Assembly (NCBI RefSeq): GCF_000151105.2
Contig: NC_014804.1
Coordinates: forward strand, 1,364,001 to 1,428,000
DNA from: Thermococcus barophilus MP
GTDB lineage: Archaea; Methanobacteriota_B; Thermococci; Thermococcales; Thermococcaceae
Direction of reading: 5' to 3'
Length of the DNA: 64,000 nucleotides
Shown: positions 5,558 through 54,747 of the stretch, in pieces
Numbering within the stretch: position 1 is the first letter of the stretch
How the letters are laid out: each line of letters begins with the position of its first letter
Translations under genes and position numbers: made by a program
Notes under the pieces: model-generated
Told to the model about the DNA's origin: nothing
What the model saw: the letters and a program-made list of their open reading frames with translations, nothing else
Database searches by the model: none

Positions 5558-5617
5558 AGCCGATGATGGCAACAGGGTAGCTGCCGATTGATGACGAAGC
5601 CGTTCCAGTCTGAGGCT
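5558..5617 (+). ncRNA. Candidate C/D box sRNA (rRNA/tRNA 2'-O-methylation guide)
   Basis: On the plus strand a terminal stem AGCC (5558-5561) / GGCT (5614-5617) encloses C box ATGATGG (5563-5569, one mismatch to RTGATGA), an 11-nt guide, a degenerate D' box CTGC (5581-5584), C' box TGATGA (5589-5594), a 15-nt guide and D box CTGA (5610-5613). The order and the 60-nt size fit archaeal C/D sRNAs. It lies between the convergent fumarase and stress-protein genes and overlaps the latter's stop codon by 2 nt. It could be processed from the fumarase message. The weak D' box and mismatched C box keep this tentative. Confidence 0.5.
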
Positions 5618-6458
5618 ATTCACACGGTACCAAAAGCACAGGCAGCTTTGAATCCCTTATGACCCTTTCTGCCGTGCTTCCGAGGAGTAAATCCCTGATG
5701 ATGCTTCGTCCCTTCTTACCCATTACAATAAGCGTTGCACCTTTTGCTATTGAGAGACCTATTATCCCTTGAGAGGCAATGCCAGCCAGCACCTCCTTTT
5801 CAACTGGAAACTTCACGATCTTTGCATACCTCTCAAGGTTCTGCTTGGCCTTTGCTATATTTTCTTCAAGCTCCTCAGCTTTGCCGTAGTCAACGACGTG
5901 AAGAAGGACTCCTTCCTTAGCGAGCTCCTCAAACCTCTTAACAGCTTCCATTATCCGTATTGAACACGGCGAAAAGTCTAAAGCTACCAGCGGTTTGTCA
6001 AAAATTTTCTCGCAGTCATGCAGGCATTTTATCTTCTCTTCCTCTTCATCCCATTCATACCTAATCAATAAAACGGGTTTCTTGGTTGCTCTTACAAGGT
6101 TTGAAGCTGTGCTTCCCAAAAACATCTGACGCAGAATATTTTCTCCTTTTGAGGGGCTTATAATTAGGTCAACGTTCCTTTCTCTGGCAATTTCAGCTAT
6201 TTCCAACGAAGGAATTCCAAGCTTCACAATTGATTCAACCTCTATTCCCCGCTCTCTAAGCTCGTCCGCCAAGTTGTTTATCTGTTCCTCATCAATCTTC
6301 ATAAGCTCAAGGGCTTCAATATCTGTTGCAGTGATATCAACTATGTGTACAAGATAGAGCTTTTTAGCCCCAAGCTCAAAGAACTTCGGGACACAGTTCC
6401 TTAAAGCATGTAAGGACACTTCAGAAAAATCCGTTGGGAAAAGTATCTTCTCAAACAT
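5616..6458 (-). CDS. Universal stress protein with two UspA domains
   Basis: The 280-residue product is a tandem UspA fusion. The first half starts FEKILFPTDFSEVS and contains a degenerate loop (ISPSKGENILRQMFLGSTA). The second half has VALDFSPCS and a canonical ATP-binding loop (VMGKKGRSIIRDLLLGSTA) followed by RVIRDSKLPVLLVP. The second domain probably binds ATP. The ATG at 6458 has GGTGA 5 nt upstream; the upstream TTG at 6470 has no such site. It is a single gene, convergent with the fumarase beta gene. A cytosolic stress or signalling role is assumed from the family. Confidence 0.85.
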   Translation of the reverse strand: MFEKILFPTDFSEVSLHALRNCVPKFFELGAKKLYLVHIVDITATDIEALELMKIDEEQINNLADELRERGIEVESIVKLGIPSLEIAEIARERNVDLIISPSKGENILRQMFLGSTASNLVRATKKPVLLIRYEWDEEEEKIKCLHDCEKIFDKPLVALDFSPCSIRIMEAVKRFEELAKEGVLLHVVDYGKAEELEENIAKAKQNLERYAKIVKFPVEKEVLAGIASQGIIGLSIAKGATLIVMGKKGRSIIRDLLLGSTAERVIRDSKLPVLLVPCE

Positions 6459-6561
6459 CAGCTTCACCAATAATATTTTATGCAGTTGAAGTATTTAGGT
6501 GTTGCCAAAGGAAATATAAACACCATAGTTTTCATCATGTCTCGATGTGTGTTTTTGTTAA

Positions 6562-48862: not shown

Positions 48863-51800
48863 ATGATTCTCGATACTGACTACATCACGAAAGATGGAAA
48901 GCCCATAATCAGGATTTTCAAGAAAGAAAATGGCGAGTTTAAGATAGAGCTTGACAGAAACTTCCAGCCTTACATTTACGCTCTTCTTGAAAGTGATGAT
49001 GCTATTGAAGAGGTTAAAAAAATAACGGCAAAAAGAGGAAACAAAACTGTCAGAGTTTTGAAAGCTGAAAAAGTTCAGAAAAAGTTTTTGGGAAGACCAA
49101 TAGAGGTGTGGAAGCTCATTTTTGAACATCCACAAGACGTTCCAGCGATTAGAGAAAAAATAAGGGAGCATCCAAAAGTAATTGACATTTTTGAATATGA
49201 CATACCTTTCGCAAAGCGTTATCTCATTGATAAGGGTTTAATCCCGATGGAAGGAGATGAAGAGCTCAAACTCCTTGCCTTTGACATAGAGACCTTCTAC
49301 CACGAGGGGGAGCAGTTCGGAGAAGGCGAGATAATAATGATTAGCTATGCTGATGAAAATGAGGCAAAAGTTATAACTTGGAAGAAAATTGATCTGCCGT
49401 ATGTTGAGGTTGTTTCCAGCGAGAGGGAGATGATAAAGCGCTTTGTTCAAATCATCAGGGAGAAAGATCCAGATGTCCTCATAACCTACAACGGAGACAA
49501 CTTCGATCTGCCGTATTTAATCAAGAGAGCTCAGAAATTAGGACTGAGGTTGTTCATTTCAAGAGATAAGGAAAATCCGGAGCCGAAGATACAAAGAATG
49601 GGTGACAGATTTGCCGTTGAAATCAAGGGAAGGATCCATTTTGACCTCTTCCCTGTTGTGAGGAGGACAATAAATCTGCCCACCTATACTCTTGAGGCTG
49701 TATACGAAGCGGTCTTAGGCAAGAAGAAAACCAAACTTGAGGCTGCGGAGATAACTGCAATATGGGAAAGTGAAGAAGGAATGAAGGAACTTGCAAAATA
49801 CTCAATGGAAGATGCTAAAGCGACCTATGAATTGGGCAGAGAGTTCTTCCCTATGGAAGCGGAGTTAGCAAGGCTTATCGGGCAAAGTGTCTGGGATGTC
49901 TCCCGTTCGAGCACAGGGAACTTGGTTGAGTGGTTTTTACTGAGGATTGCATACCAGAGAAACGAACTTGCTCCGAACAAACCAAGCGACGAGGAGTATC
50001 AGAGGAGGCTGAGAACGACATATCTTGGAGGCTATGTTAAAGAGCCGGAAAGAGGATTATGGGAGAACATTGTTTATTTAGATTTTAGGTGTCATCCAGC
50101 CGATACAAAGGTTGTTGTTAAGGGGAAGGGCATCGTCAATATAAGCGAAGTCAGGGAAGGAGACTATGTCTTGGGAATAAATGGCTGGCATAAAGTGCTG
50201 AAAGTATGGGAGTATGACTATGATGGTGAGCTTGTGAATGTAAATGGGCTTAAATGCACTCCAAACCATAAGCTACCTGTGGTTACACAGAAAAAGCGAC
50301 AAACTGTAATACGGGACAGCTATGCAAAATCTATGTTAACCAATAAAGTTAAAGGAAGAATTATTGCCACACACCTCTTTGAATCAATAGGGGAAATTGA
50401 AAAAAGAAAATCAGAGTTTTCTGAGGAATTCATCCTAAAAAGTGAGCTTGCCGGCATAATTTTAGCAGAGGGACACTTGCTAAGAAAGGATATCAGATAC
50501 TTTGACTCTTCACGGAGGAGACACCGAGTATCGCATCAGTATAGGGTCGCGATAACTGTCAATGAAGATGAAAAGGAGCTCATAGACCGTATAAACTATA
50601 TCTTTGAAAAGCTCTTTGGCTGTAAACCGTCAATAAAAAGAAAAAAGAACAGCAAAGCCCTAACATTACAGTGCGCTAAGAAATCAGTTTACTTAGAAAT
50701 CGAGAATATCATGAGGGAAATTGAAAACCTTGATGCCGCTTCGGTGCTTAGAGGCTTCTTTGAAGGAGACGGCACCATAAACACGGTTAGGAGAACAGTT
50801 GTAGCAAACCAAGGAACAAGGAACAAAAAGAAAATTGAGCTCGTATCTAAGCTGTTGAACAAACTTGGCATTAGGCACTCCACATATACCTACACAGACG
50901 AAAAGAATGGGAAGAGATACACACGTTACATAATTGAAATCCCATGGCGGGGAGAGCTTGTTAAATTCGCAATTTTGGTAGGATTTATAAGCACAAGAAA
51001 AAAAGAGCTTTTAAAACAGATTATCGAGCAGAAAGAAATGTATCAAATAGAAAACAGCGGCTTTTACAGGTTAAATGAAATTCATGCAACAAAAGAATAC
51101 TACAAGGGCAAAGTTTATGATTTGACCCTTGATGGTGCTCCCTACTATTTCGCAAATGGAATTCTAACCCACAACTCTCTGTATCCTTCAATAATCATCA
51201 CACATAACGTTTCGCCCGATACCCTCGAAAGAGAAGGTTGTAAAAACTATGATGTTGCCCCGATTGTTGGCTATAAGTTCTGCAAAGATTTCAAAGGATT
51301 TATATCATCCATACTTGAAGAGCTCATTGAAACAAGGACAAAGATAAAGAAGGAGATGAAAGCCACAATCGATCCCATAAAGAGGAAGATGCTTGATTAC
51401 AGGCAAAAAGCTGTGAAGCTTTTGGCAAATTCTCATTACGGTTATATGGGGTATCCAAAGGCGAGATGGTATTCAAAGGAATGTGCCGAGAGTGTAACGG
51501 CATGGGGAAGAACATACATAGAGATGACGATTAAAGAAATAGAGGAAAAATTCGGGTTTAAAGTTCTATATGCCGACACAGATGGACTCTATGCGACAAT
51601 ACCCGATGCTGACGCTGAGACTATCAAGAAGAAGGCTAAAGAGTTCTTAAAATACATCAACTCTAAACTCCCCGGGTTGCTGGAGCTTGAGTATGAAGGC
51701 TTTTACTTAAGAGGGTTCTTCGTTACAAAAAAGAGGTATGCAGTGATAGATGAAGAAGGAAAGATAACCACAAGGGGACTCGAGGTTGTGAGGAGGGACT

Positions 51801-52279
51801 GGAGCGAGATAGCAAAGGAAACCCAGGCAAAGGTCTTAGAGGCAATTCTGAAGGATGGTAGCGTTGAGAAGGCCGTTGAAATAGTCAAGAAAGTGGTTGA
51901 AGACTTGGCAAAGTATAAAGTTCCACTTGAAAAGCTCGTGATACACGAGCAGATAACAAAAAGCTTGGACGAGTATAAAGCCACCGGGCCGCATGTTGCG
52001 GTTGCAAGGAGGCTCAAAGCTAAGGGGATTAAAGTGAGACCGGGGATGATAATCAGCTATATAATCCTCAAGGGGGACAAAAAGATAAGTGACAGGGCGA
52101 TTCTATTGAGCGAATATGATCCAAAGAAGCACAAGTACGATCCGGATTATTACATTGAGCACCAAGTTCTGCCAGCAGTTTTAAGGATTTTGGAGGCTTT
52201 CGGATACAGGAAGGAAGATTTAAGATATCAGAAGACTAAGCAACTTGGATTGGGAGCCTGGCTGAATGTCAAGAAATGA
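48863..52279 (+). CDS. polB: Family B DNA polymerase precursor with an intein
   Basis: The 1138-residue precursor has exteins totalling 776 residues, the usual size for Thermococcales PolB. The N-terminal uracil-sensing domain and 3'-5' exonuclease ([33 protein letters not shown]) are intact. Polymerase motif A is split by the intein (YLDFR / SLYPSI); motif B is [18 protein letters not shown] and motif C is YADTDG. It is the replicative/repair polymerase. GGGTGAAATT precedes the ATG. The motif B His differs from the Tyr/Phe I would expect from KOD and Pfu. Confidence 0.97.
50090..51175 (+). mobile_element. Intein with LAGLIDADG homing endonuclease in polB motif A
   Basis: The insert covers residues 410-771 (362 aa), the same site and size as the KOD pol-1 intein. 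It begins with Cys ([10 protein letters not shown]) and ends ILTHN, followed by extein Ser, so Cys1, the penultimate His and the C-terminal Asn needed for splicing are present. Dodecapeptide motifs [11 protein letters not shown] and [12 protein letters not shown] indicate an LAGLIDADG endonuclease with acidic residues in place; homing ability is therefore plausible. Confidence 0.95.
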
Positions 52280-52485: not shown

Positions 52486-53178
52486 TCATCGGATTAACTT
52501 CAAAACCTCCTCTAACTCCCCGGCATTCCTTACCACAAAGCCCCTCTCTGCTATCCTCTCAACCTTCTCAGCATCTGGATTAATCCAGACTGCCCACAGT
52601 CCAGCATTTAAAGCTCCTTCAAAATCCTCTGCATAGGTGTCGCCTATGTGGAGTGCCTCCTCCGGCTTAACTCCAAAATACTCCAACGGCTTCAAGAAGA
52701 CTTCTTTCATAGGCTTGTAGGCTTTGAGTTCATCGGAATAAAACTGCCTATCAATGAAATCCGCCAACCCAAACCTCTCAAGAATTAAGCGCGTATAGGC
52801 AGAAGGCCAGAACATTACGTTGCCTGTTGTGATTATGATTAAATCCTTCTCTTTTGCCGCTTTCAAGCCTTCAATTGCTCCTTCAATGACAATCCTCTCA
52901 TCAACTCTGAGCGTTGCTTTAGCAGCAACCCTCTTGATGATCTCAATATCACAGCCAAGCTTTTTTGCGAGGATTTCTTGACTCTCTTCGAGAGCTTTCT
53001 CTGGGTTGCCTCTTTTGCTCTTCCTCAGCTCCTTGATTTCTCCTCTTGCTTCCATGACTTTTTCAAAAACCTCTTTATAATCTTTCTTTGTCAGCTCAGC
53101 CAAGGCTTTTGTCAGTTCCTCCAGCATAACGTTGATATCCAGGAGGGTGTTCCAGACATCAAAGCTCACAAGCTTCAT
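52486..53178 (-). CDS. HAD-superfamily hydrolase
   Basis: The 230-residue product has the HAD motifs: FDVWNTLLD (motif I), IITTGN (motif II), the Lys in KAYKPMKEVF (motif III) and HIGDTYAEDFEGALNAG (motif IV). The first motif reads DVW, with Trp in place of the more usual Gly/Phe. It has a helical cap at about 15-95. It probably dephosphorylates a small metabolite. Its ATG overlaps the end of the TOPRIM gene by 4 nt. Confidence 0.85.
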   Translation of the reverse strand: MKLVSFDVWNTLLDINVMLEELTKALAELTKKDYKEVFEKVMEARGEIKELRKSKRGNPEKALEESQEILAKKLGCDIEIIKRVAAKATLRVDERIVIEGAIEGLKAAKEKDLIIITTGNVMFWPSAYTRLILERFGLADFIDRQFYSDELKAYKPMKEVFLKPLEYFGVKPEEALHIGDTYAEDFEGALNAGLWAVWINPDAEKVERIAERGFVVRNAGELEEVLKLIR

Positions 53179-54179
53179 TCAATCACCTCCGCCAGCTTAT
53201 CCAAAAGTCCAGCAGCAGAGAGAATTTCTTCAAGGTTTTTCTTCCTTGAGCGCATTACAAACATTTCATAGAACCCCTCGAGGTTTCCCCAGAAGCCGTA
53301 GGAAGCTAAAGCTAAATAAATTACCTCTTTCGGCTTCAGTTTTCTCTTTAGATCAATGCACAGAATGTTTATTGCCCTCTCAATTTTTCTCAGCACTCCC
53401 TGCTTTTCCAGAAGCTTAAGCATCAAATCCTCAACAGTTGGCTTTTTCCACTCCACGCATGGGTGTCTAAAGTGGTAGCCAATTAAAAGCGGGACTATAA
53501 CAACATCTCCAACTCTAAAATTCCCTCCCTCTCTTGTGAATTTGAATGAGGAAAGCTTGCCCCTTATTGACTCCATTACCCCTTCGGCACTCTCATCGAT
53601 ATCAATGGCTAATCCTATCTTGTCAACTTTAAACTCAAAAACGTCCATAGCTTTCAAAAAGTTTCCCAAGTTCCTTATAACCCCAGCGTTGCCTTCACTT
53701 GGGATTATTGCCAGAAATACATCGTCTTTTCTCAAAAGCTCGAAGTTGTCCCTCTCAAAGACCTTCTCAATCAGTTTTAAATTTTCAGGCGTTGTTCTGC
53801 TTTCTTTAAATCCGAACAGCTTTTTATAAACCCCTTTGAAAAATTTTGAGTCAGTTTTGCCCTCACAGAAGATAATGCTGACTTTGGAAAATCCACCAAA
53901 TGATGCACCTCTTAGATCAAAATCGAGGTATTTTCTGAGCTCATAGGCTTCTTTCAAAGTTAAGCTTTTCATTGTATCGGAATATAGAAGCTCTCCACTT
54001 TCTGTTCTCTTAAACCGTTCCAGAATAAGGTCAATTAACTCCAAACTTGCTGTAACCACTGTTTCTTCTCCTTCAAGTGAGCTCACAAACTTCTTCAGCT
54101 CTTCACTGTTCTTTCCATGCTCTGGGAAAAACACCGCATCTTTAAAATTCTCATAACGCTTTCCCGTCACAATTCTCAT
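53175..54179 (-). CDS. TOPRIM-domain protein (DUF3226-like)
   Basis: The 334-residue product has a TOPRIM-like core: FCEGKTDSKFF with the catalytic Glu (EGKTD, 106-110) and IDIDES with the D-x-D pair (193-195). An N-terminal alpha/beta segment and a C-terminal helical region surround it. TOPRIM proteins of this kind act on DNA or RNA phosphodiester bonds (OLD-like nucleases, DUF3226). It overlaps the HAD gene by 4 nt and follows the membrane protein gene with no gap, so the three form one operon. Its target is unknown. Confidence 0.7.
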   Translation of the reverse strand: MRIVTGKRYENFKDAVFFPEHGKNSEELKKFVSSLEGEETVVTASLELIDLILERFKRTESGELLYSDTMKSLTLKEAYELRKYLDFDLRGASFGGFSKVSIIFCEGKTDSKFFKGVYKKLFGFKESRTTPENLKLIEKVFERDNFELLRKDDVFLAIIPSEGNAGVIRNLGNFLKAMDVFEFKVDKIGLAIDIDESAEGVMESIRGKLSSFKFTREGGNFRVGDVVIVPLLIGYHFRHPCVEWKKPTVEDLMLKLLEKQGVLRKIERAINILCIDLKRKLKPKEVIYLALASYGFWGNLEGFYEMFVMRSRKKNLEEILSAAGLLDKLAEVIE

Positions 54180-54656
54180 TTACTTCACCATATCAACGGC
54201 TATCGCACCAATCACGGCAAAGGTGCTTATTATGATGGTCGCACTTATGTACTGATTCAGGGAGAACTCAGCAAGCCTGTTTATACCATACAGGTAGATT
54301 AAGCCCGCGGATATCAGATATGAGATTAAGACTACCGTTAAAAGGCGTTTTGGTATATGGAACAGTTCCTCCCTCTCAATGTTTGAAACTTTTGCTTTTG
54401 TTATGAAAAGATAAGCAATTGAGAGGGTCAAAATCAAAATTCCAACCGCCCGCTCCATAGTTAAAGACTTTGCTATGTCCCAGATTTCTTGTGTAAAGAG
54501 AAATGGGAGAGAAAAAGTCAGGGCACCAATGATTTCCTGAGCTATATCATCCCACCCCAGCTTATCAGGTTTCTTCTCAAACCTCTTCTCTAACCCTTCA
54601 ATCTGTTCCGAGAGCTTTTCAAAACGTTCATTAAGTTGCTTTAGTTCCTCACTCAT
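54180..54656 (-). CDS. Coiled-coil membrane protein (possibly DUF2391)
   Basis: The 158-residue product has an N-terminal coiled coil (residues 1-40, EELKQLNERFEKLSEQIEGL), then about four membrane helices. The frame extends to a TTG at 54680, but the ATG at 54656 avoids overlap with a candidate C/D box sRNA. It is the first gene of the operon with the TOPRIM and HAD proteins. Function unknown. Confidence 0.7.
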   Translation of the reverse strand: MSEELKQLNERFEKLSEQIEGLEKRFEKKPDKLGWDDIAQEIIGALTFSLPFLFTQEIWDIAKSLTMERAVGILILTLSIAYLFITKAKVSNIEREELFHIPKRLLTVVLISYLISAGLIYLYGINRLAEFSLNQYISATIIISTFAVIGAIAVDMVK

Positions 54657-54658
54657 TT

Positions 54659-54715
54659 TGCTCAGCCACTCTGGGGTCAATCATCAGTTCAGCATTGGAT
54701 TCATTCATCATCGCA
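54659..54715 (-). ncRNA. Candidate C/D box sRNA, well formed
   Basis: On the minus strand, a terminal TGC/GCA stem (54715-54713, 54661-54659) encloses C box ATGATGA (54711-54705), a 12-nt guide (54704-54693), D' box CTGA (54692-54689), a 2-nt spacer, C' box TGATGA (54686-54681), a 15-nt guide (54680-54666) and D box CTGA (54665-54662). All four boxes match the archaeal consensus in order and spacing. It ends 2 nt before the ATG of the membrane protein gene, so it may be cut from the 5' leader of that operon. Confidence 0.65.
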
Positions 54716-54738
54716 CATTTAAAAAGTCTTGGGACAAG

Positions 54739-54747
54739 GTTATAAAC
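54739..54747 (+). promoter_or_regulatory. TATA box for the S-layer-like gene
   Basis: GTTATAAAC lies about 36 nt before the ATG at 54779. AGGTGAGTAAGT provides a ribosome binding site within the short leader. Confidence 0.5.

Follow-up and report, generated by a model that had tools for sequence, protein, structure and literature searches.

The sR46 locus

The stretch of DNA analysed here (the window) comprises 64,000 nt of Thermococcus barophilus MP (NC_014804.1, positions 1,364,001 to 1,428,000), and its positions 54660-54715 hold, on the minus strand, a C/D box sRNA assigned by an Rfam scan (cmscan) to family sR46, RF01130. The match spans model positions 1-56 of 56 with 83.3 bits and an E value of 7e-18 (gathering score, 50 bits) and is far beyond chance. 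sR46 is a known, already catalogued sRNA family with an ordinary role, and the window copy agrees with the Rfam consensus over its full length, in both guides and in all boxes, differing in two bases of the D'-C' spacer and in nothing essential. The sRNA lies between a predicted TTTATA promoter and the start codon of a same-strand gene for a DUF2391 protein, the first of three genes in a row. The features are as follows, with the boxes, the stem and the short ORF read directly from the sequence:

54741..54746, minus strand: TTTATA, probable TATA box for both sRNA and operon, lying 35 nt before the ATG of the C box
54660..54715, minus strand: C/D box sRNA sR46 (RF01130), full-length cmscan match
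54715-54713 with 54661-54659, minus strand: 3-bp terminal stem UGC/GCA
54705..54711, minus strand: C box ATGATGA, its ATG opening a 20-codon ORF
54693..54704, minus strand: D' guide, 12 nt, 10 bp with the organism's own 16S rRNA
54689..54692, minus strand: D' box CTGA
54681..54686, minus strand: C' box TGATGA
54666..54680, minus strand: D guide, 15 nt, 10 bp with the organism's own 16S rRNA
54662..54665, minus strand: D box CTGA
54649..54711, minus strand: 20-codon ORF and stop running through the sRNA (MMNESNAELMIDPRVAEQNE)
54180..54656, minus strand: DUF2391 putative integral membrane protein, 158 aa from its ATG (PF09622, E 4.1e-12)
53175..54179, minus strand: DUF3226 protein (PF11536, E 1.1e-15)
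52486..53178, minus strand: HAD-family hydrolase (PF00702, E 7.2e-20)

A first-pass annotation, made from the letters alone, had recognized a four-box C/D box sRNA here and placed it in the leader of a membrane-protein/TOPRIM/HAD operon; the Rfam match and the C, D', C' and D boxes, which follow one another in order with guide spacing, bear out the former, and the DUF2391/DUF3226/HAD gene order bears out the latter, DUF3226 (PF11536) being the gene it termed TOPRIM. That the four boxes are a chance assembly and no real sRNA is vanishingly improbable and already refuted at the sequence level: box motifs are short, and the fold energy of the free sR46 RNA is no better than that of shuffles (z 0.69), but neither point stands up to the Rfam E value or to the recovery of RF01130 from 89 of 94 genomes. 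Since the kink-turn normally forms with L7Ae, the fold-energy result in fact counts neither for nor against the sRNA.

Within the window's genus, TTTATA stands at positions -34 to -36 relative to the C-box ATG in 7/7 genomes, and the DUF2391 ATG comes 2-3 nt after the sRNA in all six that have the gene; TATA boxes between -30 and -20 are described for T. onnurineus (PMC5316973). In the window the DUF2391 ATG at 54656 lies outside the sRNA, 2 nt beyond 54659, and in another frame than the 20-codon ORF, whose stop codon TGA (54651-54649) falls inside DUF2391 codons 2 and 3, the stop and the start overlapping as ATGAGTGA. DUF2391 could alternatively begin at a TTG that lies in its frame within the D guide. 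A strong Shine-Dalgarno sequence before the ATG was sought and rejected, the best pairing, within the D guide and D box, being weak (-4.0 kcal/mol). A second TATA-like stretch occurs at 54718-54725 on the same strand, its TTTTAAA kept in 6/7 genomes of the genus; it might start transcripts inside the sRNA, within the D' guide.

Distribution of sR46 and its operon in the family

The comparison set was drawn from the window's family and numbered 94 genomes, their genera coded g1 (the window's genus) to g6. sR46 was found in 89 of them, 85 times above the Rfam cut-off, and in 74/74 genomes with at least 90% completeness and at most 5% contamination; the five without a match are 53-82% complete. 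These counts leave out a second, weak RF01130 match (L093) in genome G033 (E 2.7e-6, 34 bits), and six more weak second matches (29.8-30.9 bits) likewise stand outside the locus counts.

All 60 full-length DUF2391 genes, each from a different genome of the 94 (protein search, rows at E <= 1e-50), lie directly 3' of sR46, and no full-length DUF2391 without sR46 was seen in the set. The converse does not hold. Genus g3, which we take to be a Pyrococcus-like genus, has sR46 in 9/9 genomes and DUF2391 in 0/9, and no operon gene stands behind the sRNA in any of the nine; in the two g3 loci examined for ORFs, a convergent ORF ends directly against sR46, and the one tested, in G004, is of the ThiF family. 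Altogether 29/89 sR46 loci are without a full DUF2391 alongside, including one cut by a contig end (G036) and one with DUF2391 in two fragments (G029); in 10 of these 29, DUF3226 starts no more than 110 nt from the sRNA. Seemingly frame-broken or truncated DUF2391/DUF3226 copies were observed behind the sR46 match in G029 (L070), G081 (L009), G086 (L004) and G088 (L006). The nine g3 genomes and the 29 loci mean that the sRNA persists without the operon: the tie between the two is real but lineage-specific, and these cases, together with two loci in metagenome-assembled genomes (MAGs) described next, count against a functional need for it.

In the MAGs, one labelled Methanomassiliicoccales and the other Methanofastidiosia, C/D-like RNAs (L107:5203-5255 and L118:3045-3105) combine the C box and D' guide of sR46 (TGAATCCAATG) with other D guides. 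Their C/D sRNA scores are below gathering thresholds, and the contig DNA examined around them gave no DUF2391 match. By our estimate about 0.1 chance matches of the C-box/D' pattern are expected in the collection holding the two MAGs; shared descent, convergence or mis-binned contigs may each account for these sR46-like halves.

In three Pyrococcus genomes 46 sRNAs were found, with Northern verification in P. abyssi (Gaspin 2000, cited in PMC7994747), and sR46 may be one of them. A circular RNA named 'sR46' in T. kodakarensis (1371729-1371790; PMC9014305) was considered as the RF01130 copy of that organism, since its coordinate and that of the RF01130 match in G024 (87729) differ by exactly 1,284,000, and rejected. 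Genome G024 is T. kodakarensis KOD1, judged by its rRNA coordinates, and these agree with the unrotated map of PMC9014305, so that the published 'sR46' and the RF01130 match at 87729 are two loci; the circular-RNA data of that study were therefore not used for sR46. The RF01130 locus at 87729 is absent from its circular-RNA table, which counts against the two-use reading given below.

Pairing of the guides with rRNA

A search covering the organism's own 16S and 23S rRNA found that each guide pairs with 16S rRNA over 10 contiguous base pairs in the N+5 register. In the D' guide, the C at 54697, fifth nucleotide upstream of the D' box, pairs with G919; in the D guide, the A at 54670 pairs with U1106. 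A MAFFT alignment with E. coli 16S rRNA equates G919 with position 962 and U1106 with about 1148, the latter in a poorly conserved stretch. Shuffled guides equalled the 10-bp run in own 16S and 23S rRNA in 63 of 100,000 cases for D' and 371 of 100,000 for D, the run having to begin at the second nucleotide before the box. The rRNA complementarity on which the first-pass annotation had set its guide check is hence present for both guides. From these pairings we infer that sR46 would direct 2'-O-methylation of 16S rRNA at G919 and, in the window's genus, at U1106.

The two guides differ in their conservation. 16S rRNA was sought in 30 of the 94 genomes and obtained from 22; the D' guide pairs over 10 bp with the equivalent of G919 in 22/22 of these, whereas pairing of the D guide at the equivalent of U1106 is found in only 7/22 (the window genome, 5/5 in g3, 1/3 in g5, 0/11 in g4 and 0/2 in g2). 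A repeat restricted to 16S and 23S rRNA (21 genomes with both) gave the same D-guide pattern. Likewise, the D' guide columns are identical, last base excepted, in 49/49 in-frame 53-nt sRNAs, and the D guide core with its D box occurs in 27/94 genomes (g1 7/7, g3 9/9, g5 7/13, g4 4/61), in 23 of them at sR46; the four g4 occurrences are not at sR46. Pairing kept in every genome tested by one guide and only in some genera by the other makes the D' guide the constant part of sR46.

For the D guides of 11 g4 genomes a common new rRNA target was looked for inside 16S and 23S rRNA and not found, the best proximal runs being 6-9 bp at sites that differ between species. New targets in single g4 species may exist: the guide of G035 forms 9 bp at 23S position 991 (11 with G-U) and that of G020 9 bp at 23S position 41, each equalled by 5/150 shuffles, and those of G022, G028 and G073 form 8 bp near 23S position 278, while the 6 bp of the T. 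kodakarensis guide were equalled by 101/150 shuffles. The idea that a different sRNA took over the U1106 guide across g4 was also considered and rejected, the core with its D box occurring off sR46 in just 4/61 g4 genomes. One of these four loci (L207, G036:C38:304-358) is a homologue of sR51 in which the D' guide matches the U1106 guide of sR46 exactly (CCCCAGAGTGG); the other three gave no Rfam match. sR51 was matched in 11 of 12 g4 genomes searched, with the U1106 guide in G036 (a genome 69% complete) and not in the other ten, and a guide seems to have passed between sRNA genes there.

Reading frame from the C box into DUF2391

Outside the window's genus the relation of sRNA and gene is mostly a closer one. 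Of the 60 loci that have a full-length DUF2391, 53 carry a C box, supplying ATGATG, whose ATG is in frame with DUF2391, and the frame is open (g4 48/48, g5 4/5, g2 1/1, g1 0/6); the exceptions, out of frame, are the six from the window's genus and one from g5. Typical predicted peptides begin MMSESNADGMMNPEPE... in g4 and MMNESNAEEMIDPRVAERE... in g5. Measured from the end of the sRNA to a conserved tryptophan, the spacer is 89, 95, 104, 107, 110 or 113 nt long, values that are equal modulo 3. In 51 different spacers there are 0 stops among 1788 codons in frame and 83 and 122 in the other two frames; counting only as far as the first later in-frame ATG, a possible start present in 35 of the 53 in-frame loci, the figures are 0 of 869 codons against 31 and 67. 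Six of the 53 have no ATG, GTG or TTG between sRNA and domain, so DUF2391 should begin inside the sRNA in these. In 47/58 g4 loci the C-box ATG is preceded by a TTTATA at a distance of 32-33 nt, a spacing that predicts a transcription start a few nucleotides before the ATG and thus a leaderless or nearly leaderless mRNA. The first-pass annotation had described an overlap of the sRNA with the operon leader, and this idea emerges strengthened by the 53 in-frame loci, and restricted to certain lineages by the nine g3 genomes without DUF2391. That annotation also conjectured that cutting out the sRNA would take away the leader of the gene and could couple rRNA modification to the operon; both are hypotheses.

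Other traits of the in-frame loci are less telling. Their sRNA is 53 or 56 nt long in all 53 cases, and lengths in the 29 loci without a full DUF2391 are 52 (5), 53 (7), 55 (3), 56 (4), 57 (1), 61 (8) and 62 nt (1); the association between DUF2391 presence and in-frame sRNA length went in the expected direction and was not significant (sign test on a tree of 73 DUF3226 proteins, median p 0.25). Changes at codon positions 1/2/3 from the sRNA to +28, counted for loci on a tree, were 36/31/41 in 25 loci with spacer 113, 19/13/20 in 8 loci with spacer 107 and 3/1/10 in 9 loci with spacer 95, a bias that is weak in the first two of the three spacer classes. The D guide has no codon-position bias (9/10/7 changes, summed), and amino-acid conservation in the D half of the sRNA was rejected on that ground. 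Nor was the D guide cleanly traded for the fusion: four in-frame g5 loci keep it, so fusion does not require its loss.

A probable single transcript with two possible uses

We consider it probable that one promoter serves both sRNA and operon, that the dual-guide sR46 forms the 5' end of the mRNA and that the transcript is used either as an sRNP or as an mRNA. Family membership, guide pairing, adjacency and frame conservation, all computed here, are its factual base. Transcription would start from the TATA promoter at or a few nucleotides before the 5' end of sR46, and the same promoter would drive the DUF2391-DUF3226-HAD operon, the sRNA being the 5' end of its mRNA. Transcripts that assemble with L7Ae, Nop5 and fibrillarin and are trimmed would become guide RNPs, in which fibrillarin would be directed to 2'-O-methylate 16S rRNA at G919 through the D' guide and, in the window's genus, at U1106 through the D guide; transcripts without assembled proteins would be translated. 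The mRNA would be read from inside the sRNA, from a C-box or C'-box ATG, in most loci that keep DUF2391, and in the window's genus from an ATG 2-3 nt after the sRNA, with a 20-codon frame through the sRNA ending just inside DUF2391. A single primary transcript would thereby have two mutually exclusive uses, and the shared transcript, the methylation, the translation through the sRNA and the competition between the two uses are the steps that we infer. Against the two-use reading count the later ATG in 35/53 in-frame loci, the weak codon-position bias in two of the three spacer classes and its lack in the D guide, the length association that was not significant on the tree, and the seven loci out of frame.

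The chief alternative, to which we allow a considerable chance somewhat short of even, is that nothing but a common promoter joins sRNA and operon, the sRNA being trimmed as usual and translation starting after it with no regulatory meaning. For the window's own copy a shared promoter is explanation enough: there, as throughout its genus, DUF2391 begins outside the sRNA. It also accords with an sRNA that outlives the operon in 9/9 Pyrococcus-like genomes, with the 29/89 loci without a full DUF2391 alongside and with the later ATG in 35/53 in-frame loci; against it speak a frame kept in 53/60 loci, the lack of stops in the 869 codons before the later ATG as against 31 and 67 in the other frames, and six loci without another standard start codon. 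It is improbable that the element is a leader switch only, in which L7Ae or an sRNP on the C/D motif would repress the translation of DUF2391 without release of any free sRNA. Repression by L7Ae through k-turns has been reported (PMC5539422), and some 5'-terminal snoRNA-like k-turns may be cis-regulatory (PMC4247193), but sR46 has two guides in correct register to 16S rRNA, and its D' guide is kept in the absence of DUF2391, in the Pyrococcus-like genomes and at the MAG loci L107 and L118.

A bolder form of the two-use reading, which we hold only tentatively and think rather unlikely, would make sR46 in Thermococcus a dual coding and guide RNA, its 53 nt serving both as a 16S guide and as the opening codons of DUF2391 on a leaderless mRNA with the C box as start codon; assembly with L7Ae, Nop5 and fibrillarin would decide between the uses, and in the window's genus the switch would act through the 20-codon upstream frame. 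It is weakened by the later ATG, by the codon-position counts and by the four in-frame g5 loci that retain the D guide. The guide RNA and the first codons of a protein do appear to share letters, in a frame kept across several archaeal genera, and if the two-use reading is true, sR46/DUF2391 is a concrete example of a transcript put to either of two mutually exclusive uses. The family also provides a natural setting in which the evolution of guides that share a frame can be compared with that of guides that do not: D' pairing with 16S rRNA is kept in 22/22 genomes, and the D core is kept in the four fused g5 loci, its 16S target being lost in the fused g4 loci tested.

Relation to other archaeal C/D box sRNAs

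C/D box sRNAs that adjoin or cover the start of the gene behind them have precedents in the 5'-overlapping and 5'-coding archaeal sRNAs (Tripp 2017, via PMC7994747; PMC4247193). An own TATA-like motif was reported for 20% of the archaeal C/D genes studied, and 7% overlap a downstream 5' end, an overlap that lowered reporter transcription (PMC7994747); in T. kodakarensis, 11 potential snoRNAs were placed in 5'-UTRs and 12 in 5'-coding regions, with release by processing presumed (PMC4247193). In the 5'-overlapping cases described, the start codon concerned usually falls within a guide or downstream of the D box (PMC7994747), whereas in the sR46 relatives, of three genera, the open frame begins at the C box and takes in the entire sRNA; the window's own copy, unlike the 5'-coding sRNAs, sits in the leader and not in the coding frame. 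Sulfolobus L7Ae represses translation in reporter assays through k-turns in the leader or just after the start codon (PMC5539422), and the likeness to sR46 would be a k-turn near a start codon that could block translation; there, however, it is a simple k-turn in the l7ae leader, and here a complete dual-guide sRNA. The literature searched gave no account of a frame shared by sR46 and DUF2391, and the T. kodakarensis copy may be included in Tripp 2017 or Gaspin 2000.

The window holds a second C/D box sRNA, sR22 (RF01275, 80 bits), at 5559-5615 on the plus strand. A Fumerase_C ORF of the same strand precedes it by 25 nt, and a convergent ORF of the Usp family (5616-6470, minus strand) has its 3' end directly against it; a circular RNA, sR22 of Jager 2014, is listed at the universal stress protein gene TK2034 (PMC9014305). 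At 48863-52279 on the plus strand, the window also encodes a family B DNA polymerase with an intein that carries a LAGLIDADG domain (PF00136, PF14890, PF14528).
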